Assembly: GCF_030159895.1 (NCBI RefSeq)
Contig: NZ_BSNI01000002.1
Coordinates: 1,080,306 to 1,144,305, forward strand
DNA length: 64,000 nucleotides
Direction: 5' to 3'
Source: Maritalea porphyrae
GTDB lineage: Bacteria; Pseudomonadota; Alphaproteobacteria; Rhizobiales; Devosiaceae
The position numbers were made by a program, and so were the translations under genes. The notes beneath the pieces are model-generated. The model was not told the origin of the DNA. It did not search any database and worked only from the letters and a program-made list of their open reading frames with translations. Below, piece by piece: positions 7,978 through 38,149 of this stretch; the stretch's first letter is position 1; every line of letters begins with the position of its first letter.

Positions 7978-8110
7978 CCGCGAGCAACCATATAAGACAA
8001 TGATGAAACCATGTCGGTTCGTTTGGTCCTTTTAAAAAACAACGCGGACTGTCGCCCGCTCATTGAGTTGATTATGCGCTTTTTGGCGCGTTTTTTCAAG
8101 TCTGATCCAA

Positions 8111-8743
8111 TCAACGCTTTGGCGCACCGCCATTGCGTATTTGGGTAGAGGATAGGTCGCTCATGATGCCATGCATGTAAACCCACGCAGGAGCCTGAAG
8201 GTCCGCCAGGCGATGGGCGTCACTTTCGTCAATTCGGTCACCCGAAAGGGCGATTGCCGTTTTGGAGAATGGCGCTTGCCGCGCGTCACCAGGACGCACA
8301 TAAACAGCCATCGGCATCATATTCGCAATCTCGCGCCAGCGTTCCCATTTGTGGAAACTCGAGAGATTGTCTGCACCCATGATCCAAACAAATCGTCGAT
8401 CGGGCAAGCTTTTGGTTAAAAACTCAAGCGTATCAAACGTATATTTGAAGCCATGTTCTGCTTCAAAGCCTGTTATCCGAACACCAGGATGGTCAACAAG
8501 TTTTTGTGCTGCGGCAATACGTTCCGCAAGTGGCTTAAGTTCCGAGTGATCCTTTAATGGGTTGCCGGGTGAAACAAGCCACCACACTTGATCGAGACCG
8601 AGCCGCTTCAAGGCTTGGCGCGATACCAAGCGATGCCCATCATGCGGCGGGTTGAAGCTACCGCCAAAAAGACCGATACGCATGCCAGGCGCAGAATGTG
8701 GCAACACATCAGTGCGTGCATTGTCTAAGAATATGGTGCTCAC
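8111..8743 (-). CDS. nadD: Nicotinate-nucleotide adenylyltransferase
   Basis: A 210-residue enzyme that adenylates nicotinate mononucleotide in NAD synthesis. It has the nucleotidyltransferase motif [11 protein letters not shown] at about 28-38, the [14 protein letters not shown] segment, and the second nucleotide-binding motif SSTQIR near the C-terminus. The start is GTG at 8743, overlapping the proA stop (GTGA), which implies coupling. An internal ATG at 8683 would still include the catalytic motif but discards a 20-residue leader that I recall from relatives. Confidence 0.95.
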
Positions 8744-27618: not shown

Positions 27619-27849
27619 CCCCACTAAAAAATGCTGTTGCCGAGCCGTTCCTCAAAGTTGGTGTGCGATTCGGTGTGTGCCAATAAGAACCAATTATGGC
27701 GCAGTGGCTGGGTATTGAAAGGCAAAATCGGCCAAAAAACAGACCATTTTGCCTAGAATTTGGCCTTCTTCAAATATGGTTAGGAATTATTAAACAGTTC
27801 GCGGTGAAACTGCGCGAGAATGAATCGTGTATTTCGGGGGATGCCATTT

Positions 27850-28140
27850 ATGGCGGACATGCAAACAAAGCAGATCGAATTACCAGCAATCGCTGATATC
27901 GGCGCAGTTGATGAGCTGCGTGAAGAAATGCTTGAAGCACTAAATGCCGGCAACTTGGAAATCAACCTTGCAAAAGTTGAACGCGTTTCAACCAACGCAT
28001 TGTTCATGTTGCTCAGCGCTGCAAAAACAGCGAGCAACCACAATTATCAACTCTTGCTAAGCGCCCCGAGTGAACATTTTTCCTCTGCCCTTGAGACTTT
28101 GGGTTTGGAAAGCGCTTTTGCACCGTTAATGAAAGGATAG
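27850..28140 (+). CDS. STAS-domain chemotaxis protein, CheS-like
   Basis: A 96-residue single STAS-fold protein (IELPAIADIGAVDELREEML, LEINLAKVERVSTNALFML, LLLSAPSEHFSSALETLGLE). It is the first gene of the chemotaxis cluster, just before cheY and cheA. In Sinorhizobium meliloti a 97-residue protein in the same position, CheS, tightens binding of the sink regulator CheY1 to CheA; the match in size, fold and position suggests the same role. The ATG at 27850 follows GGGGG by nine bases; in-frame ATGs at 27820 and 27841 have poorer sites. An anti-anti-sigma function is less likely given the neighbours. Confidence 0.75.
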   Translation: MADMQTKQIELPAIADIGAVDELREEMLEALNAGNLEINLAKVERVSTNALFMLLSAAKTASNHNYQLLLSAPSEHFSSALETLGLESAFAPLMKG

Positions 28141-28147
28141 TCAGTTT

Positions 28148-28507
28148 ATGCGTGTACTCACGGTTGATGACTCCCGTACAATTCTTGCAATGCTACAGCA
28201 CACGTTGGCTGGCGCGGGATATGAAGTTCTTCAGGCTGAAAATGGTCAGGAAGGTCTTGATGTCTTGGGTGCAGAAAATGTCGATGTAGTTATTACTGAC
28301 ATCAATATGCCAGTAATGGACGGGATCGAGTTCATCAAAAATGTGCGGGCCTCTGGTCAATACCAAAGCTTGCCAATTCTAATTCTGACAACCGAAACAA
28401 GCCAAGATAAGCGCGATCAAGGTCGAGCTGCGGGCGGTACCGGTTGGATCGTGAAACCTTTTGATCCGGACAAGCTGCTCAGCGTGATCAAAAAGGTCTC
28501 TCACTAA
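28148..28507 (+). CDS. cheY: CheY-type response regulator, first copy
   Basis: A 119-residue single receiver domain: acidic pair VDDSR, phospho-acceptor Asp51 in TDINMPVMDG, switch Thr in LTTETS, and Lys in IVKPFDPDK. It has no output domain. Directly upstream of cheA and downstream of the CheS-like gene, it occupies the CheY1 position of rhizobial systems, where that copy drains phosphate from CheA. The second copy at 35034 would then be the motor-binding regulator. This division of labour is inferred from order only. Confidence 0.93.
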   Translation: MRVLTVDDSRTILAMLQHTLAGAGYEVLQAENGQEGLDVLGAENVDVVITDINMPVMDGIEFIKNVRASGQYQSLPILILTTETSQDKRDQGRAAGGTGWIVKPFDPDKLLSVIKKVSH

Positions 28508-28537: not shown

Positions 28538-31012
28538 ATGAGCGAACTAGACGAATTTAAGGCTACCTACTTCGACGAATGTTCTGAACTGCTTACCGAA
28601 TTGGAAGAGCAGTTCATGGCAATTGAGGAAGGGGATCAAGACCCCGAACGCCTCAATGCTGTCTTTCGCGCAATTCACTCGATCAAAGGTGGCGCAGGTG
28701 CCTTCGGCTTTACAGGTCTTGTAGGATTTGCCCACAGCTTTGAAACACTTCTAGATTTCGTGCGTGATGGCCGCATTGAGATGAGCGAGAAAGTGCTCAC
28801 TCTTTGTATCCGTTCAAGCGATTTGGTTGCTGATTTTGTTTCAGCGGCACAAGAAGGACGCGAACTCGAAGACGGTTATGGTGCTGAGGAAAAAGCGGAG
28901 TTTGAAGCGCTTTGTAATCCTGACGGTGCCGAGGAAGAAGAGCCTGAGGACTTCGATATCGAGTTTACGCCAGTGATGGTGAATGTCGATGCCGATGCCG
29001 ACGCGCCAGCCGCTGAACTGCCTGATGACGAAGACGTTTTTGAAAGCCCGCCGCTCAACGCTGGCGCCGACACAGATCTTGGCGCAGCGCTCGATGATGC
29101 TGCAGACGATCTTTCAGACGCAGATGTGGTTTTTGCCGGTGACGGCACCGATGGCGCACCTGAATTCGGCGCAGCTGCCGACGCTTGGACACTGACATTT
29201 ACGCCACTTCCAGCGTTGTTTGAACGGGCAAATGACCCGCTCTTATTGTTCCGTGAACTCGCAATTGTTGGCGATTCACAGGTGAACGCGGATATTCGCG
29301 AAATCCCTGAATTGAACGACTTCGAGCCGTTCCACCCTTACTGTCAGTGGGTGATTACGCTTAAGGGCGATGACGTTACCGAAGAGCGCATTCGTGAAGT
29401 CTTTGAGTTTGTTGAAGGTGACTGTGAGATCGAAGTTACGCCACCAGGTGAACTTAGCGAGCGCCAGACATCAATTCTAGTCGGAGAAATTGGTCCGGCT
29501 GACGATCAAGCCGCAACCGAGCCTGCACCAGAGGTGCCTGCTGAAGCATCGGCCCCAGCACCTGCTCTAGAAGTTCCTGAAGCGCCTGCCGCTGCTGCCG
29601 ATGATGCCGGTGATGCGCCAAGCTTTGCTGACCTTGCTGGTGAGTTGGGTGTGGACATGGACGCCGCGCCAGAAGAGGCAAAACCAGAAGAACCTGTTGC
29701 TGAAAAAGCTGAAGCGCCAAAAGAAACAGCGCCAACACCACAGCCGCCAGCGTCCGAGCCAGCAGCAAAATCGACTGCACCCGCCTTTGGTAATGCGCCA
29801 GCAAAACCAAAAACGCCGGAAAAACCGCCGGTTCAATCCATTCGTGTGGACCTTGATAAGGTCGACCGCGTAGTGAATATGGTTGGAGAATTGGTTATTA
29901 CGCAGTCAATGCTCACCCAGCAGATGGATGAAACACTGCGCGACAAATACCAAGAGTTGGTGCGCGGTATTGAGGTATTGGCCCAAACCACTCGTGGCTT
30001 GCAAGATAGTGTTATGGCTATCCGTGCGCAGCCGGTTAAATCTGTATTCTCGCGTATGCCACGTCTGGTTCGCGAATTGGCGAATAAGACGGGCAAAAAG
30101 ATCAAGCTCGAGATGGTTGGTGAGAACACCGAAATCGACAAGACCGTTATTGAGCAATTGTCTGATCCGCTAACGCATATGATCCGCAACTCAGCCGACC
30201 ACGGTATTGAAAGTTGCGAAAAACGTACCGAGCGGCGTAAGCCGGAGCAGGGTACGATTACCCTTTCTGCCGAACAGGCAGGCGGTAACATTCTTATTAT
30301 CGTTGAAGATGACGGTGCGGGTATTAACCGCGAACGGGTCTTGGCCATCGCCAAAGAACGTGGTGTTGTTCCGCAAGACCAGACCCCATCTGATGAGCAA
30401 ATCGACAATTTGATCTTTGCGCCTGGTTTCTCAACGGCTTCAGAAATCTCAGATATTTCAGGACGTGGTGTGGGCATGGACGTTGTGTTGTCCAACATCA
30501 AAAAGATCGGTGGTTCGGTGCATGTGCGCTCAAATCCTGGTCGCGGCACCCGAATGACCCTTCGTCTTCCACTTACATTGGCTGTGCTTGATGTGATGTT
30601 GGTGTCTGTTGCGGGCTGTCCATATGTTGTGCCGCTGTCATCGATTGTTGAAACAATTCAAGCGGGTCGCGCAGAGTTTGGCAAAGTGCCGAGCGGTTCG
30701 CGATTGCTGCAAATCCGCGGTGAATATGTGCCGGTTGTTGATCTGGCCACACGCTTTGCAATGCACACCGATGCGGACGAAAATGAACGCTTCGTGGTCT
30801 TGTGCGAAGCAGAAGGTACTAACAAACTCGCGATCATTGTCGACGAAATTATCGGTCAACAGCAAGTGGTTATTAAGAGTTTAGAGGAAAACTATGAGCG
30901 TATCGACGGTATTGCCGGTGGTACAATCCTAGGTGATGGACAAGTGGCGCTCATTGTTGACGTCCAAGGGTTGAAGACAACTCGTGTAAATCATCGCAGT
31001 GCGGCGGCATAA
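28538..31012 (+). CDS. cheA: Chemotaxis histidine kinase CheA
   Basis: An 824-residue kinase. P1 is a histidine phosphotransfer domain with His47 in FRAIHSIKGGAGAFGF. An acidic linker is followed by a folded segment (about 215-310, including PFHPYCQWVITLKGDD) in the usual place of the regulator-docking domain, then a long Ala/Pro/Glu-rich linker (about 325-425). P3 dimerisation begins at SIRVDLDKVDRVVNMVGELV; P4 has N-box HMIRNSADHGIE, G1 DDGAGINRERV and G2 SGRGVGMDVV; P5 is a CheW-like domain (PYVVPLSSIVETIQ). The kinase couples receptor signals to the CheY and CheB proteins of this cluster. Confidence 0.97.
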   Translation: MSELDEFKATYFDECSELLTELEEQFMAIEEGDQDPERLNAVFRAIHSIKGGAGAFGFTGLVGFAHSFETLLDFVRDGRIEMSEKVLTLCIRSSDLVADFVSAAQEGRELEDGYGAEEKAEFEALCNPDGAEEEEPEDFDIEFTPVMVNVDADADAPAAELPDDEDVFESPPLNAGADTDLGAALDDAADDLSDADVVFAGDGTDGAPEFGAAADAWTLTFTPLPALFERANDPLLLFRELAIVGDSQVNADIREIPELNDFEPFHPYCQWVITLKGDDVTEERIREVFEFVEGDCEIEVTPPGELSERQTSILVGEIGPADDQAATEPAPEVPAEASAPAPALEVPEAPAAAADDAGDAPSFADLAGELGVDMDAAPEEAKPEEPVAEKAEAPKETAPTPQPPASEPAAKSTAPAFGNAPAKPKTPEKPPVQSIRVDLDKVDRVVNMVGELVITQSMLTQQMDETLRDKYQELVRGIEVLAQTTRGLQDSVMAIRAQPVKSVFSRMPRLVRELANKTGKKIKLEMVGENTEIDKTVIEQLSDPLTHMIRNSADHGIESCEKRTERRKPEQGTITLSAEQAGGNILIIVEDDGAGINRERVLAIAKERGVVPQDQTPSDEQIDNLIFAPGFSTASEISDISGRGVGMDVVLSNIKKIGGSVHVRSNPGRGTRMTLRLPLTLAVLDVMLVSVAGCPYVVPLSSIVETIQAGRAEFGKVPSGSRLLQIRGEYVPVVDLATRFAMHTDADENERFVVLCEAEGTNKLAIIVDEIIGQQQVVIKSLEENYERIDGIAGGTILGDGQVALIVDVQGLKTTRVNHRSAAA

Positions 31013-31034: not shown

Positions 31035-31514
31035 ATGGAAGCCATCGAACTCAACGAAAATGATCTTGAAGTTGGCGGTGCAAACTCCATTCAGTTGATT
31101 GCATTTTCAATTGGTGAGCAAGCTTACGGGGTCGAAATCACCACAGTTCGTGAAATTCGAGCGTGGAACGGTGCGACGCCACTACCAAATACAAAAGAGT
31201 TTGTGCGCGGGGTGGTCAACCTACGCGGCACGATCGTGCCGATCTTTGATCTTCGTGCTCGATTTGGCGCTGGCGTCACCGAAGCAACAAAAACCCATGT
31301 GGTTGTAGTGCTTGCGGTTGGTGAAAAATGGATCGGCATTTTGGTTGATGCGGTATCTGACATTTTGACGGTTCAAAAGAACGACATCCACCCTGTACCT
31401 GAAGGGGAGAATATGGATTCAGAACTGCTAAATGGCATCGTGACACATGATAGCCGGATGGTTGGTTTGATCGATTTGGAATCTGTCGTGGGCCAAACTG
31501 GCGAAGAAATCTAG
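31035..31514 (+). CDS. cheW: Chemotaxis coupling protein CheW
   Basis: A 159-residue CheW adaptor linking receptors to CheA: QLIAFSIGEQAYGVEITTVR, PNTKEFVRGVVNLRGTIVPI, WIGILVDAVSDILTV, GLIDLESVV. It follows cheA by 22 bases, with AGAGGA ahead of the start, and is closed by a strong terminator, so STAS-cheY-cheA-cheW form one transcription unit. Confidence 0.97.
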   Translation: MEAIELNENDLEVGGANSIQLIAFSIGEQAYGVEITTVREIRAWNGATPLPNTKEFVRGVVNLRGTIVPIFDLRARFGAGVTEATKTHVVVVLAVGEKWIGILVDAVSDILTVQKNDIHPVPEGENMDSELLNGIVTHDSRMVGLIDLESVVGQTGEEI

Positions 31515-31597: not shown

Positions 31598-31954
31598 TCA
31601 GAATAATTCGATGTCGTCGTGCTTCGCGCGACCGGCAATGCCAGATAGATTTGGCTTGCGCAACTCATCCAATGTCAACTCTGACCAAATATCTTTATGA
31701 TCGATATTTTCAGAAATGTCATCGATGACTTTTGCCATCAAACGCGCAGCTTTTGCGATATTATCAGATCGTTGTTGAATACGATCTTGTGCTTGCAAAG
31801 CAACCAGCATTTGTTGAATGGCGGTGCTACGTGCATCGTCACTATCGAGCTTGTTATTCATTAGAACGCCGAGGCTGTCGTTGATTTTGTCAATCATTTC
31901 AGCGGTTTGGCGTGCGGTCTCTTCCAATTCGACCGCTAACTTGTCCAAGGACAT
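31598..31954 (-). CDS. CheT-like chemotaxis protein with CheZ-type DxxxQ motif
   Basis: A 118-residue, mostly helical protein, unrelated at first sight to named Che families. A helix at about 46-75 contains AQDRIQQRSDNI, where Asp57 and Gln61 give the D-x-x-x-Q spacing of the CheZ phosphatase active site (compare FQDLTGQ in E. coli CheZ). S. meliloti CheT, encoded in its che operon, has the same kind of motif and acts on the sink regulator CheY1 and binds CheR. This gene is probably its counterpart, but it is inverted relative to the other che genes and divergent from cheD. The C-terminus KHDDIELF shares its last seven residues with CheD. The start has AAGGGGG upstream. Confidence 0.7.
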   Translation of the reverse strand: MSLDKLAVELEETARQTAEMIDKINDSLGVLMNNKLDSDDARSTAIQQMLVALQAQDRIQQRSDNIAKAARLMAKVIDDISENIDHKDIWSELTLDELRKPNLSGIAGRAKHDDIELF

Positions 31955-32113
31955 ACTAAAATTCCCCCTTTAACTTGCTCGCCCAATCTACAATTCAATT
32001 CCTAACTGCCACTTTCTTTTTTCTAAAAATAAGCGAATGTTCTCGTTGTGGTTAGCAGTTCACTAATAAATTCAGGGTTAGGGTGGTAGGCAAAAGTAAT
32101 ACAGGATGAATCA

Positions 32114-32695
32114 GTGACAGAATCGATCAGATCCCCTCGCGACATTCCACGTCAATCAACGGTGCAAGTTCATCAAGGCGATTGTCATGTGTCTGGCGAA
32201 CCGGAGACGGCATTCTCGACTGTTTTAGGCTCGTGTATTGCTGCCTGTGTTCGGGACAAAATTACCGGCGTTGGTGGAATGAACCATTTCTTGCTCGGGG
32301 TTCAATCCGATAGTTCTAAAGACAAATACGGTGAAAGCGCACGCTACGGCGCCTACGCTATGGAAGAATTGATCAACAAAGTCCTCACCCAGGGCTCTGG
32401 CCAACGAACAGAGTTGGAAATCAAAGTTTTTGGCGGTGGAAACATCAACCAAAAGATGGATGATGTTGGTGCCAAAAACGCAGCTTTTGTCCGCGGCTTC
32501 CTCGCGGCGGAAGGGTACAAAGCCGAAGCGGAAGATCTTGGCGGGACATATGCGCGGCGCGTTGTATTTCAGCCAGTTCCCGGCCGTGTTTTTGTCAAAC
32601 ACCTCGATAGCTCAGTAAATGATGGCTTGATCAAAGAAGAAATTTCAAAAGCCAACAAGCCAGTCGAAACTCACGACGATATCGAATTGTTCTAA
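32114..32695 (+). CDS. cheD: Chemoreceptor glutamine deamidase CheD
   Basis: A 193-residue CheD, which deamidates receptor glutamines before methylation. The core has VLGSCIAACVRD with nucleophile Cys41 and nearby Thr36, GGMNHFLL with His58, KVFGGGNI, and DLGGTYARRVVFQP. A tail after residue 160 ends in THDDIELF, whose last seven residues match those of the CheT-like protein encoded divergently next door. The start is GTG with AGGA seven bases upstream; an overlapping out-of-frame ATG opens only a three-codon frame (ATGAATCAGTGA) that ends across the GTG. Confidence 0.95.
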   Translation: MTESIRSPRDIPRQSTVQVHQGDCHVSGEPETAFSTVLGSCIAACVRDKITGVGGMNHFLLGVQSDSSKDKYGESARYGAYAMEELINKVLTQGSGQRTELEIKVFGGGNINQKMDDVGAKNAAFVRGFLAAEGYKAEAEDLGGTYARRVVFQPVPGRVFVKHLDSSVNDGLIKEEISKANKPVETHDDIELF

Positions 32696-33036: not shown

Positions 33037-33888
33037 ATGGATAGCGGTGAAATTTCTTTGTCGGATCGCGAATTCGAAGCGGTAAGAAACAAAGTATATG
33101 ATTTGGCAGGCATTTCGATGAGCGATGCCAAGCGCACCCTTGTTGTGTCGCGACTATCAAAAATTATCCGACGTTTGAACTTAGATACGTTTACAGCCTA
33201 TTTGGATCATTTGGATCGAAACGGGTCGGCTGATGAAGTTCAAGAGTTCATCAACGCGCTAACAACTAATCTCACTAGGTTCTTTCGTGAAGATCACCAT
33301 TTTGATCATTTGAACGACTATATTGGTGGTATCGTCAATGATCCGGCCAATCCAAACAAATCTCGACTGCGCCTTTGGTCGGCTGGTTGTTCTACCGGGC
33401 AAGAGCCATATACGATTGCGCTGAGCCTTTTGGCTGCGCATCCCAAACTAAAGACATGGGATTTCAAAATCCTAGCAACTGATATCGACACTAACGTTGT
33501 CGAAAAAGCAAAAACCGGCGTTTACAAAGCAGGCGACTTGTCTGGTCTGTCTCCTGAACGCGTAAAGCTTTTTGACCGCGATGGCGCCGGCAATGTGCGC
33601 ATTCCTGATCATGCTCGTTCAATAGTGACGTTTAAGTCGCTCAACTTGATGGAAGCTTGGCCAATGCGTGGGCCGTTTGACGCCATCTTCTGCCGCAACG
33701 TAGCGATCTACTTTAATAAGCCGACCCAAGAAAAAATGTTCACCCGCATGGGTGAGCTGCTTAAGCCAAACGCGTTTCTTTACATTGGGCACTCGGAAAA
33801 CCTCAATTCAGTTGCTGACAAGTTTAAGCTGGTTGGCAAAACCGTTTATCAAAACAAACTAGGTGCTAGCGCACGGAGTGCCGCATGA
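33037..33888 (+). CDS. cheR: Chemoreceptor methyltransferase CheR
   Basis: A 283-residue methyltransferase that adds methyl groups from S-adenosylmethionine to receptor glutamates. It has an N-terminal helical domain (DREFEAVRNKVYDLAGISMS) and a SAM-binding domain with RLWSAGCSTGQEPYTIAL, ILATDIDTNVVEKA and DAIFCRNVAIYFNK, then YIGHSENL. It overlaps cheB by four bases (ATGA). The receptor at 35627 ends in a W-x-x-F pentapeptide of the kind that tethers CheR in other bacteria. Confidence 0.97.
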   Translation: MDSGEISLSDREFEAVRNKVYDLAGISMSDAKRTLVVSRLSKIIRRLNLDTFTAYLDHLDRNGSADEVQEFINALTTNLTRFFREDHHFDHLNDYIGGIVNDPANPNKSRLRLWSAGCSTGQEPYTIALSLLAAHPKLKTWDFKILATDIDTNVVEKAKTGVYKAGDLSGLSPERVKLFDRDGAGNVRIPDHARSIVTFKSLNLMEAWPMRGPFDAIFCRNVAIYFNKPTQEKMFTRMGELLKPNAFLYIGHSENLNSVADKFKLVGKTVYQNKLGASARSAA

Positions 33889-34949
33889 TCAAAGTTCTCG
33901 TTGTTGACGATTCTGCACTTATTCGAGAAGTGCTTTCTTCGTTACTTTCCGCAGGTGATGACATCCATGTCGTCGGTACAGCTTGCGACCCAATTGATGC
34001 ACGAGGCAAAATTAAAACGCTTAACCCAGATGTGGTGACGCTAGATATCGAAATGCCAAACATGAATGGTTTGGCATTTTTGGAAAAAATCATGCGCTTG
34101 CGACCAACGCCAGTTGTGATGATTTCGACCCTCACACAAAAAGGTGCGCAAGAAACACTGCTTGCTTTGGAACTTGGCGCTGTCGACTTTGTTGCAAAAC
34201 CAGGTCACGACTTGGCTGGTGGTCTTGAGCAGTTTGGTCGGGAAGTGCGCGATAAAGTTATCGCGGCATCGCAATCAGATGTTCGTGGTCGTGCGATGGC
34301 ACGTCAACCTGCGCCAGAAAAAGCTACGCCAGCAACTCCGGTTGCGTCGGGCGCAAAGGTTTCATCAAATGCACTCATCGCAATTGGTGCATCAACCGGT
34401 GGTGTCGAAGCGGTGAAAACAGTACTTTCAGGTTTGCCAAAAGACTCGCCTCCTGTGGTGATTGCGCAGCATATGCCCGCAGGATTTACTGCTCGGTTTG
34501 CGCAGCGCTTGGATGAAACTTGCGCTTTGACTGTCGTTGAGGCCACCGAGAGATTGGTGCTGCAACCTGGTCATGCCTATGTTGCACCTGGTCACGCGCA
34601 TTTGCGTATTGAAAAGTCGTCTGGTCAATTGAAGTGCCGTCTGGGTGAAGATGGACCAGTTTCTGGTCACCGTCCGTCAGTTGATGTGCTGTTTGAATCA
34701 GTCTCCAAGCAGGTCGGAGCGGATGCTGTAGGTGCGATCTTGACGGGCATGGGGAAAGACGGCGCGAACGGCATGAAACTCATGCACGATACCGGAAGTT
34801 TTACAATTGGCCAGAGTAAATCATCGGCCCTGATTTATGGTATGCCGCGTGCTGCCATGGAGATGGGTGCCGTGGACGAAGAAGCGTCCGTAGAAAAAAT
34901 AGCAGCAAAGCTCATCAGCGCTTTGGAACGCCGTAAAGCTGCGGCATAG
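33885..34949 (+). CDS. cheB: Chemotaxis methylesterase CheB
   Basis: A 354-residue response regulator/methylesterase. The receiver domain has VVDDSALIRE and phospho-acceptor Asp54 in LDIEMPNMNG. A linker (about 130-160) leads to the catalytic domain with Ser170 in GASTGG, His196 in AQHMPAGF and the Asp of TGMGKDGANG. It removes receptor methyl groups when phosphorylated by CheA. It is translationally coupled to cheR. Confidence 0.97.
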   Translation: MIKVLVVDDSALIREVLSSLLSAGDDIHVVGTACDPIDARGKIKTLNPDVVTLDIEMPNMNGLAFLEKIMRLRPTPVVMISTLTQKGAQETLLALELGAVDFVAKPGHDLAGGLEQFGREVRDKVIAASQSDVRGRAMARQPAPEKATPATPVASGAKVSSNALIAIGASTGGVEAVKTVLSGLPKDSPPVVIAQHMPAGFTARFAQRLDETCALTVVEATERLVLQPGHAYVAPGHAHLRIEKSSGQLKCRLGEDGPVSGHRPSVDVLFESVSKQVGADAVGAILTGMGKDGANGMKLMHDTGSFTIGQSKSSALIYGMPRAAMEMGAVDEEASVEKIAAKLISALERRKAAA

Positions 34950-34974: not shown

Positions 34975-35034
34975 ATGGATAAGATCAGAACTGAAGTAAA
35001 TCGTATGTTTCCTGAAACTAGAGGCATCTGCTAA
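34975..35034 (+). CDS. Possible 19-codon leader frame coupled to the second cheY
   Basis: An ATG at 34975 opens a 19-residue frame (MDKIRTEVNRMFPETRGIC) whose TAA overlaps the cheY ATG as TAATG. Its own ribosome binding site is weak, while GAGG nine bases before the cheY start is adequate. It may be a coupling peptide or chance. Confidence 0.25.
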   Translation: MDKIRTEVNRMFPETRGIC

Positions 35035-35423
35035 TGCCCAAAGCAAGTTCGATGTGCGTTTTGATTGTTGATGACCAGCAATCAATGCGCGGTATTTGTA
35101 AATTCATCTTGAACCAGTTGGGGTTCAAGAACGTTGTTGAAGCCAAGTCTGGGCGCGACGCGTTGCTTAAACTCGAATCCGCAAATGTCGACCTGATTAT
35201 TTCAGATTGGAATATGGACGATGTTGACGGTTTGACCTTACTCAAGGTTATCAGAAAGCATCCGCGTACCTCTTCGATGCCTTTCATTATGGCCACTGGT
35301 CGTGGTGACAAAGAGCAAGTGAAGGAAGCAATCAGCTGTGGCGTGAATAACTATGTCATCAAGCCGTTTGATGCGGGAACGATGAAAAAGAAAATCGAAG
35401 CAGTTATTGGCGCTTTGAGTTAG
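35034..35423 (+). CDS. cheY: CheY-type response regulator, second copy
   Basis: A 129-residue single receiver domain with VDDQQSMR, phospho-acceptor in ISDWNMDDVDG, MATGRGD and YVIKPFDAGTM. The WNM motif resembles the motor-binding CheY of enterobacteria and the CheY2 type of rhizobia. It is therefore the better candidate for the regulator that binds the flagellar switch. It is closed by a UUCG-loop terminator, so cheD to this cheY may end here, before the chemoreceptor gene. Confidence 0.94.
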   Translation: MPKASSMCVLIVDDQQSMRGICKFILNQLGFKNVVEAKSGRDALLKLESANVDLIISDWNMDDVDGLTLLKVIRKHPRTSSMPFIMATGRGDKEQVKEAISCGVNNYVIKPFDAGTMKKKIEAVIGALS

Positions 35424-35486: not shown

Positions 35487-35535
35487 TAGATTTGATTCAG
35501 GAGTTCTGTTGTAGTCTTGGTAACCAACAATAATT

Positions 35536-35567
35536 GTTCGAACGCGCGGGGGTAATAGCGCTCGAAC
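35536..35567. promoter_or_regulatory. Inverted repeat upstream of the chemoreceptor gene
   Basis: GTTCGAACGC (35536-35545) and GCGCTCGAAC (35558-35567) form a 10-bp inverted repeat with one mismatch and a 12-base spacer, about 60 bases before the receptor start. A second small palindrome (CTCGTTCGAG) lies near 35603. It is a possible operator or leader hairpin; the regulator is unknown. Confidence 0.35.
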
Positions 35568-35626
35568 GAATTTGCGCGAACCGGCGCTGTATTATTGAAT
35601 TGCTCGTTCGAGGTGGAGAAGACTCG

Positions 35627-38149
35627 ATGTTAAAAAGTATGAAGTTGCCAACAATCAAGATTTCCCAGAAATTGCCAATGGTCCTCGTGGGGGCGGCGCT
35701 TTTTGTTGCACTTGGGGTAGGGCTTGTAAGCTACCGGGTCAGCGAATCCACCGTAAACCAAATGGCGGAGCAAAGATTGTCGACGATTGCGTCTATACGC
35801 GCTGAGTCGATGACCGGGTTGCTGGAAAATATGAAAACCGACCTGCTGAAAACCGCAGGTGACGGGGCATTGGGCAGCTCATTGAGCGAGTTGCGAAGCA
35901 CTTGGGAACAAGCTGACAAGAACCCGACAGCGTTTTTGCAAGAAGGTTTTATAACCAACAACCCTCACGCTGAAAACGAACGGCATCTGGCCAATACCGC
36001 TAAGCAATTCACAAACTACGATTTCTCGCATTCTCGCATCCACCCGAGCCTCTCCACTCAGGCGGTCAATGCGGGCTATCGTGACGTTTTGATGATTTCA
36101 GCGGATGGCGTTGTTGTTTATTCGGTGTTCAAGAATGTCGACTTTGCCACGCAGATTGAAGCGGGCACAATCCTAGATTCGCTCTACAAGTCAGCGCTTG
36201 AAGTACCAGAAGGCGAAGTTGCCTTCACAGATTTCGCGCCTTACGCAGCCTATAATGGCGCGGCGGCAAGCTTCATGGGCGCAAAGGTTCTCGATACAAA
36301 AGGCAATGTTGCAGGCGTCCTGGCATTTGGTGTGCCGATCGATACAATCGCAAACTTCGTTAGCCTGAAGAAGGGTCTTGGTGAAACTGGCGAAACACTA
36401 CTTGTAGGTGCAGACAATTTGCTTCGTGTAGATTCAACATTTACCGAAGAAAATGATCAATTCACAACAAGTTTTGAAGCCGAAGCAATTACCGCAGCAC
36501 TTGCCGGTGAGCAAGCGCAAAGCATCACCAGTGCTTACCGCAACGAAAAGATGCATGTTGAAGCAGTTCCTGTATCCTTCGCTGGTGTTAATTGGGCAAT
36601 GGTCGCTGTAGAAAGCTTTGCGGCACTTCACAAACCAGTTGAAGAAATGCGCAACATGATGCTGCTCGTTGGCGGCGGAACAATGTTGATAGCTGTCCTA
36701 GTTGGACTGTTCTTCTCCCGTACGATCACAGGCAATATCTCAAACCTCACCGCAACCATGCGCGATTTGGCTGAGGGTGACCTTGATGTTGAAGTGCGCG
36801 GATCTGATCGCACCGACGAGTTGGGCGAAATGGCACGCGCGGTTGAAGTGTTCCGTGAGAACGGTATCAAAGTGCTGCAAATGACCGAGGAAGAAAAAGA
36901 AGCTTCACAGCGTCGCGGTGTTGAACGTCGCAAAATGATGGAAGAGTTGCAAAACGCGTTTGGCGCGGTTGTTGATGCAGCTGTCGATGGTGACTTCTCG
37001 CAACGGGTTCAAGCTGAATTTCCTGATGAAGAACTCAACCGTTTGGCGCATGGCGTGAATAACTTGGTTGAAACTGTAGATCGTGGTGTTGGCGAAACGG
37101 CTAAAGTATTGTCAGCGCTTGCCAATACAGACCTTACGCAGCGTATGGAAGGCAACTACAAAGGCGCCTTCAAAAAACTGCAAGATGATACCAACCGCGT
37201 TGGTGAGCAGCTAACAGAAGTTGTTGGCAAAATCCGCACAACATCACGTGGGTTGAAAACCGCAACAGGTGAAATTCTTTCAGGTGCGAACGATTTGTCT
37301 GAGCGCACGACTCGTCAAGCCGCTTCAATTGAAGAAACATCGGCTTCAACTGAACAGCTCGCCGAAACCGTTCGAGACAACACAGAGCGCGCTCAGAAAG
37401 CTCAAGCTTCAGCAAGCGAAGCCCGCTCAGTCGCCGAACGCGGTGGCCAGGTGATGAACGAAGCGAACGAAGCGATGCAGCGTATCACAGCATCTGCTGC
37501 GAAAATCTCAGATATTATCGGCATGATCGATGATATCGCGTTCCAAACCAACTTGCTTGCGCTGAACGCTTCGGTTGAAGCCGCCCGCGCCGGTGAAGCT
37601 GGTAAGGGCTTCGCGGTTGTGGCCGTTGAAGTTCGTCGCTTGGCACAATCTGCGGCCGAAGCGTCTTCTGAGGTTAAAGTGCTCATCGAGCAGTCTGGCT
37701 CTGAAGTGAACAGTGGTACCAAATTGGTGGCGCAAGCAGCGCAGAACCTTGATGGCATCGTTGAATCAGTTCGCGGCGTTACGGCATTGATGGACGAGAT
37801 TGCAAGAGAAAGCAAAGAGCAGTCGAATTCAATCAATGACATCTCAATGTCAATTGCTGAGATGGATGAGATGACACAACGTAACGCATCATTGGTTGAA
37901 GAGACCAATGCAGCTATTGAGCAAACCGAGAGCCAGGCGAACGAGCTTGACCAGATTGTTGATGTGTTTGTCACTGATGGTGCAGCACGCCGCTCTTCGC
38001 AGTCGGTGCCCGCAGCTGATCCAGCACCGGCACCACAGCCGGCGACAGGTATTAAGGCATTGCAGCAAAAAGTTGCCACAGTCGCCAAGTCATACCTGTC
38101 AAATGGTAACGCGGCGGTCGACACAGACGCTGAATGGAAAGAGTTCTAA
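35627..38149 (+). CDS. Methyl-accepting chemotaxis protein with Cache-type sensor
   Basis: An 840-residue transmembrane receptor. TM1 lies at about 18-35, a periplasmic Cache-like sensor at about 40-335 ([38 protein letters not shown]), and TM2 at about 342-364. A HAMP domain follows, with a second HAMP-like stretch (about 440-530), then the signalling hairpin whose tip is [20 protein letters not shown] (about 633-655). The last five residues, EWKEF, fit the x-W-x-x-F tether that recruits CheR/CheB in other bacteria. The ATG at 35627 has GGAG eight bases upstream and places TM1 correctly; an earlier start at 35534 lacks a binding site. It is a paralogue of the receptor at the left edge. Confidence 0.95.

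Follow-up and report, generated by a model that had tools for sequence, protein, structure and literature searches.

A short C-terminal tail common to CheD and a CheT-like protein of Maritalea porphyrae as a predicted CheY-docking motif

The CheC-CheD-CheY system of Bacillus couples a CheY phosphatase to CheD and feeds back to the receptors (according to excerpts of PMC3579733). Of the two CheYs of S. meliloti, CheT is reported to promote the dephosphorylation of just one, and in A. fabrum FliM is reportedly bound about 5-fold better by CheY2 than by CheY1 (both from excerpts of PMC12654446, a review). Rhizobial CheY1 is described as a phosphate sink, and a 2021 review, in the sections available here, presents CheD and CheT as uncharacterised in rhizobia (PMC8429497). 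The C-terminal region of CheZ is the CheY-binding region (PMC7750401, excerpts).

The shared tail in the Maritalea che cluster

The locus compared here with these systems lies in a window of 64,000 nucleotides (contig NZ_BSNI01000002.1, positions 1,080,306 to 1,144,305); the closest named relatives are Maritalea (CheD identity 93% for L063 and 84% for L064). The cluster starts with a STAS-domain protein, CheS-like by position (27820..28140, plus strand; PF13466, 47.4 bits), followed on the same strand by CheY1 (28148..28507; PF00072, 95.6 bits), the CheA kinase (28538..31012; ORF of 824 aa), and CheW (31035..31514; ORF of 159 aa). The CheT-like gene (31598..31954, minus strand; ORF of 118 aa) and cheD (32114..32695, plus strand; ORF of 193 aa; PF03975, 86 bits with a cut-off of 25) are divergent; CheR (33037..33888; PF01739, 207.7 bits; PF03705, 57 bits), CheB (33885..34949; ORF of 354 aa), CheY2 (35034..35423; PF00072, 101.7 bits), and a chemoreceptor (MCP; 35534..38149) follow on the plus strand. 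CheA, CheW, CheB, and the chemoreceptor were named by sequence. In the window, the CheT-like gene has no CheY gene as a neighbour within 1.5 kb.

The sequence-only reading had both divergent genes ending in the same heptapeptide, and ORFs, strands, coordinates, and C-termini all proved to be as it gave them: in the ORF translations the CheT-like protein ends KHDDIELF (tail HDDIELF at 31601..31621, minus strand) and CheD, of the receptor deamidase family, ends THDDIELF (tail at 32672..32692, plus strand). A 24-base pattern for HDDIELF and a stop has exactly two matches in the genome (3,349,362 bases, 5 contigs), the CheT-like gene and cheD, and none in the reversed control. The looser pattern GANNTNGANYTNTTYTRR occurs at six places in the genome (reversed control, two): cheD, the CheT-like gene, three sites reading TGG in place of a stop, and C2:2556018, where no ORF of at least 20 aa stops. 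Among the 1,866,003 residues encoded by the ORFs of 80 CheD loci, [DE][ILVMA][DE][LFM][FW] occurs 154 times, 118 times at most two residues from the ORF end and 36 times elsewhere; the tail is thus more than chance.

The CheT-like protein has the DxxxQ signature D57-R-I-Q-Q61 (31772..31786, minus strand), with D57 and Q61 invariant in 30/30 family homologues. This motif, like the adjacent cheD, is a feature of CheT, and the protein is a candidate CheZ-type phosphatase, an activity that we infer. No Pfam or NCBIfam family matched it above cut-off; NF047973 (cut-off 200 bits) gave no match at E<=0.01 or 0.1, and neither did PF04344 (CheZ), whose sole match in the genome is another gene (C2:1335396-1335659). 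Like CheT of S. meliloti and A. fabrum (NF047973), it is a small DxxxQ protein encoded beside cheD; unlike it, the Maritalea protein has no NF047973 match and its gene is divergent from cheD. For CheD, no NCBIfam equivalog cut-off was reached (best 169.8, cut-off 223); T36, C41, and H58, which we take to be the Thr/Cys/His catalytic residues, are identical in 30/30 family sequences.

Conservation and carriers of the tail

Both genes are present, side by side, in all 30 family loci (own genome included). The CheD end IELF is invariant in 30/30, while most of the preceding linker columns are only 23-56% identical; the CheT-like proteins have the core in 30/30, with a final F in every case, preceded by L or F. 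Both proteins have the full heptapeptide in 2/30 loci, those of the own genome and a sister, and they agree over the last five residues in 5/30, so that the seven-residue identity is incidental and a core of four to five residues is the conserved unit. Of the short linear motif first proposed, the core stands, being strongly conserved in both families, and identity over the full heptapeptide is local; CheD and the CheT-like protein are otherwise unrelated, as had been held, no similarity being detected between the two families.

The motif is wider than first claimed: many Pseudomonadota have it on CheD, and several CheZ-like architectures carry it too. Among distinct CheD C-termini (distinct in the last 60 residues; profile E<=1e-10) the core [IVL]-[EDT]-[LF]-F, counted as [IVLF][EDTQ][LFM][FW] plus 0-2 further residues, is terminal in 137/168, internal in five, and absent from 26; 137/168 should not be read as a population frequency, as the routes to the loci were CheD similarity, PF03975, and the tail pattern, and the tailless CheDs were mostly sought out deliberately. 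Of 52 distinct CheT C-termini retrieved by the family profile, 51 end in the core and one has it internally. Carriers lie on contigs labelled alpha-, beta-, and gammaproteobacteria, and 17/17 further alphaproteobacterial CheDs end in the tail or a near variant (ITLF, VQLF).

Within the chosen sample the tail is near-exclusive to CheD and DxxxQ proteins. Distinct tailed ORFs other than CheD (110 aa or more, ending [DEGSN][IVLMFA][EDT][LFM]F) have a CheZ-type DxxxQ in 97/101 cases; the four others are GGDEF proteins (L193, L205, L228) and one receptor-like protein (L202). A loose DxxxQ regex finds 98/101, one being a chance match inside a GGDEF protein, and is also common in untailed ORFs (1,474/7,799) and untailed MCPs (80/114; MCPs being ORFs whose best BLAST hit was the window receptor); the strict form [LMVF]QF[QEGY]DxxxQ occurs in 26/101 tailed and 0/7,799 untailed ORFs (0/114 untailed MCPs within these), and for receptor-like proteins only this form has weight.

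The DxxxQ carriers comprise the Devosiaceae-type CheT family (48 members, 47 with [LM]QxQDRIxQ), rhizobial-type CheT (same order, NF047973-type CheT), Caulobacterales-type CheT-like proteins (including L128, labelled only 'bacterium'), small DxxxQ proteins, and receptor-like proteins. Both rhizobial-type CheTs that were scanned end GDFDFF; they score above the NF047973 cut-off (219.6 and 213.9 vs 200 bits), with alignments that reach the final profile position. Run against 240 genomes of the class, the same profile gave no match anywhere, controls included, a result that is uninformative on absence.

Candidate acceptors of the tail

With moderate confidence we read the tail as a short-form CheY-docking motif on phosphatase and deamidase, a short version of the CheZ/FliM peptide with CheY1 as the most likely acceptor. 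The peptides of CheZ and FliM are CheY ligands. In the sampled genomes, canonical CheZ proteins have ends such as QDDVDDLLSSLGF and similar sequences; alphaproteobacterial ends, own genome included, are NQDQVDAMF, SQSDIDAMF, and SQDDIDKLFG; FliM of the own genome has NQDEIDNLLGF. The tail resembles the CheZ (PF04344) peptide in being C-terminal, acidic around a hydrophobic core, with F at or near the end, and carried on DxxxQ phosphatases. The CheZ peptide ends VDDLLSSLGF or NQDQVDAMF, whereas the tail is shorter, has no S/N-Q lead, is also found on CheD, and, outside two alphaproteobacterial groups, goes with a Trp-type CheY. With the FliM motif it shares the acidic-I-acidic-hydrophobic core; the FliM motif is N-terminal, longer, and has its hydrophobic residues at +3/+4 after I, those of the tail being at +2/+3. 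Neither [S/N]Q-x-x-[I/V]-D-x-[L/M]-F nor D-x-LL-x-x-LGF fits the tail, which is shorter and without the Q lead; though outside the canonical pattern, it could function like such a peptide.

The two CheYs of the window differ in the residue three positions ahead of the conserved KP. In CheY1, the predicted acceptor, it is Trp100 (28445-28447), at a position that we equate with Tyr106 of E. coli CheY, in the peptide-docking face; the corresponding GW-x-x-KPF pattern (GGNTGGNTNRYNAARCCNTTY) has one site in the genome, within this CheY1. In CheY2, which by prediction would not recognise the short tail, it is Tyr107 (35352-35354). Across the sample the residue is Trp in 62/63 CheY1-class sequences; in the CheY2 class (n=67) it is Y in 57, V in 3, F in 2, and unread in 5.

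Canonical CheZ genes with a CheY-like gene within 1.5 kb have a Tyr-type nearest neighbour in 16/16 cases (7/23 have no such neighbour). The own genome holds a second pair of this kind outside the window, a CheZ (FQDLTGQ, ending NQDQVDAMF; the PF04344 match at G000:C2:1335396-1335659) adjoining a Tyr-type CheY (the pair at L304:7391-8029 and 8030-8458). For tailed phosphatases with a CheY-like gene at most 1.5 kb away (n=31), the nearest is of Trp type 13 times, the residue otherwise being V (8), Y (5), T (4), or M (1). One of the 18 non-Trp cases is L104; in the remaining 17 the phosphatase is a rhizobial-type or Caulobacterales-type CheT, with CheY2 or a third regulator as its closest neighbour of this kind. 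Leaving these two CheT types aside, 13/14 short-tailed phosphatases, the 13 representing 11 genomes, have a Trp-type neighbour; the association of CheY type with tail type (Fisher p about 1e-7) omits these 17/31 and ignores kinship. Among tailed-CheD loci holding CheA (n=94), a strict regex finds a Trp-type CheY in 68 and none in 26, of which L117 and L232 have the Trp in variant spelling, L107 and L140 have only other regulators, and 22 are stretches without a CheY1-class gene, often with short flanks, yet also L065 (18.8 kb) and L126 (12.5 kb).

A CheY or a CheC/CheX-like acceptor had been suggested from the sequence. CheY is the best-supported candidate, since 97/101 of the other tail-bearers are DxxxQ proteins and tail type tracks the type of the neighbouring CheY outside the two CheT groups; a CheC-like acceptor is unsupported, a search of the own genome with PF04509 (a profile of 38 positions) giving no match. 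We infer that the acceptor may be narrowed to CheY1 (Trp type) rather than CheY2. The CheY-docking reading is weakened by the CheT-CheR complex reported for S. meliloti, by the non-Trp neighbours in 18/31 cases, by the distance from the window CheT to any CheY gene, by the 26 tailed-CheD loci with no Trp-type CheY under the strict regex, by clusters that pair a tailed phosphatase with a tailless CheD, and by the tail on GGDEF proteins and L202.

That complex, in which both partners are still active (excerpts of PMC12654446), points to CheR, the chief rival acceptor. The tail would then be a variant of the receptor pentapeptide that tethers CheR (or CheB) and brings methylation, deamidation, and dephosphorylation into one complex, a reading that we consider unlikely and that nevertheless keeps real weight, since the DFDFF end of rhizobial-type CheT also fits the receptor pattern x[HFYW]xx[HFYW]. 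The tail and the pentapeptide (NWETF type) are alike in being five residues, C-terminal, and acidic, with a final F, and cheD and cheR are adjacent in many loci. The window receptor ends DAEWKEF, of the classical CheR/CheB pentapeptide type (codons 38132-38146), and of the 120 MCP-type ORFs in these loci 95 have x[HFYW]xx[HFYW] at the C-terminus; both window proteins depart from this pattern with I at -4. The receptor peptides have W at -4 (90/95) and mostly E at -2 (79/95), whereas the tail has I/V/L at -4 (136/137 in CheD) and L/F at -2 (L/F/M in 137/137 CheDs). The two codes are thus kept apart, which argues against a simple CheR/CheB tether, and such a tether would leave the DxxxQ of 97/101 other tail-bearers unexplained.

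Somewhat less probable again is docking on a scaffold of the array or the cell pole (CheA, CheW, or a polar landmark) that merely co-localises CheD and the phosphatases. It would also suit the three tailed GGDEF proteins, and CheZ of Azorhizobium has a polar localisation independent of CheA (PMC7750401, excerpts); the link between tail type and Tyr- or Trp-type CheY is not predicted by it.

Position bears on a further reading, that of a C-terminal degron or other free-carboxylate signal setting the turnover of both proteins. The extreme C-terminal position first described is true of both window proteins and of the 117/137 tailed CheDs that stop precisely at the final residue of the motif, as such a signal would have it; in 20/137 one or two residues follow, and in five more CheDs (L138, L300, L145, L162, L127) the motif lies 4-18 residues inside and may have an internal function. 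These trailing residues and internal copies argue against dependence on a free C-terminus, and we regard the signal reading as very improbable. Chance resemblance or recent gene conversion within one genome, to which the confinement of the full heptapeptide to 2/30 loci could be ascribed, is refuted by the comparative data, the core being kept in both families far beyond the genus.

The -L-F end also recalls the sliding-clamp motif QL[SD]LF. This candidate was set aside, since the tail lacks the initial Q and its carriers are almost all chemotaxis-type proteins.

CheC distribution, possible feedback, and further carriers

CheC (PF04509) is present in 10/12 genomes with only tailless CheDs (among the CheDs found in each) and in 5/33 with a tailed CheD, where internal motifs (G306, G228) and variants (G126, G158, G173) count as tailed and, in some genomes, only part of the CheD copies was read. 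The ten are made up of 9/9 (G152, G108, G090, G094, G148, G160, G097, G062, G140) and 1/3 among G184, G248, and G295. Fisher's test gives p of about 5e-5 with kinship ignored and G141 left out; this genome has a tailless CheD and no CheC, and with it the count is 10/13. The inverse distribution is consistent with the tail standing in for CheC as the connection from CheY to CheD. The five genomes with both tailed CheD and CheC argue against a strict rule, as do clusters in which a tailless CheD stands beside a tailed phosphatase, often ending ITFF (L245, L250-L253, L297, L298).

In Bacillus and, on the CheY-docking reading, in Maritalea, a CheY phosphatase and CheD are linked; in Bacillus CheC itself acts on CheD, whereas Maritalea has no PF04509 CheC and its CheD has a phosphatase-type tail. 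CheT and CheD would each hold the same response regulator by the tail, most likely CheY1, whose docking face has Trp where motor-type CheYs have Tyr. The tail of CheT would bring the phosphatase to its substrate and position the DxxxQ site; the access of CheD to receptors, or its activity, would then vary with the level of CheY1 and its phosphorylation, and CheD and CheT would compete for CheY1. The outcome would be a direct feedback from CheY to the deamidase, taking the role that CheC has with CheD in Bacillus. If so, the five-residue tail is a concrete, removable link between CheD and a response regulator, bacteria without CheC gain a direct loop back to receptor modification, and adaptation is tied to signal shut-off.

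In the literature searched, which was of partial scope, no account was found either of receptor-like proteins bearing a CheZ site or of a C-terminal motif that CheD and CheT have in common. On our best reading, what is new here is a CheY-docking-like short linear motif in proteins for which none was found described. A broader view, tentative and in our judgment somewhat more doubtful than probable, is that Pseudomonadota have two CheY-docking codes: a long one (CheZ, FliM) that would read Tyr-type CheYs, and a short one, [DE]-[IVL]-[DE]-[LF]-F, that would read Trp-type CheYs and be carried by CheT, CheZ-site receptor-like proteins, CheD, and some GGDEF proteins. By the short code CheY would gate deamidation in place of CheC and might steer c-di-GMP synthesis.

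None of ten tail-bearing proteins scanned against families matched a phosphatase family above cut-off, and the tail flags CheZ-site proteins that such scans leave unnamed as phosphatases. This may bear on counts such as that in PMC10782961, where chemosensory phosphatases are said to be missing from 811/871 genomes that have one CheY-fused CheA.

Receptor-like carriers with an MCP signalling domain above the Pfam cut-off (5/5 scanned) are L141:1900-3189, L126:3520-4755, L103:1402-2649, L133:11635-12699, and L138:11595-12695, each of which also has the tail and a DxxxQ site of CheZ type; resembling proteins, by sequence, are L208, L220, L221:9226-10413, L229:6645-7883, L250-L253, and L095. Several tailed receptor-like proteins adjoin a CheY gene. 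Those with DxxxQ are candidate receptor-phosphatase hybrids.

The tailed GGDEF proteins (L193:388-1518, ending GQDVELF; L205:439-1518, VGDVELF; L228:1276-2253, QDDIELF) come from three genomes, one of the order of Maritalea and two from other classes of the phylum. Their neighbourhoods, inspected by eye, contain no clear che cluster; a link from chemotaxis to c-di-GMP is possible.

FliM-like motifs were seen at the ends of other proteins as well. A CheZ-like ORF of 422 aa (L276:1495-2763) has two in tandem (ISQADVDKMFSQDDIDKLFG), and Caulobacterales CheY-like regulators encoded after the CheT-like ORF (L093, L107, L129, L132) have a FliM-like peptide at or near the end, e.g., LDQSDIDMLM and MSQDEINSLM, as if one regulator might dock on another.
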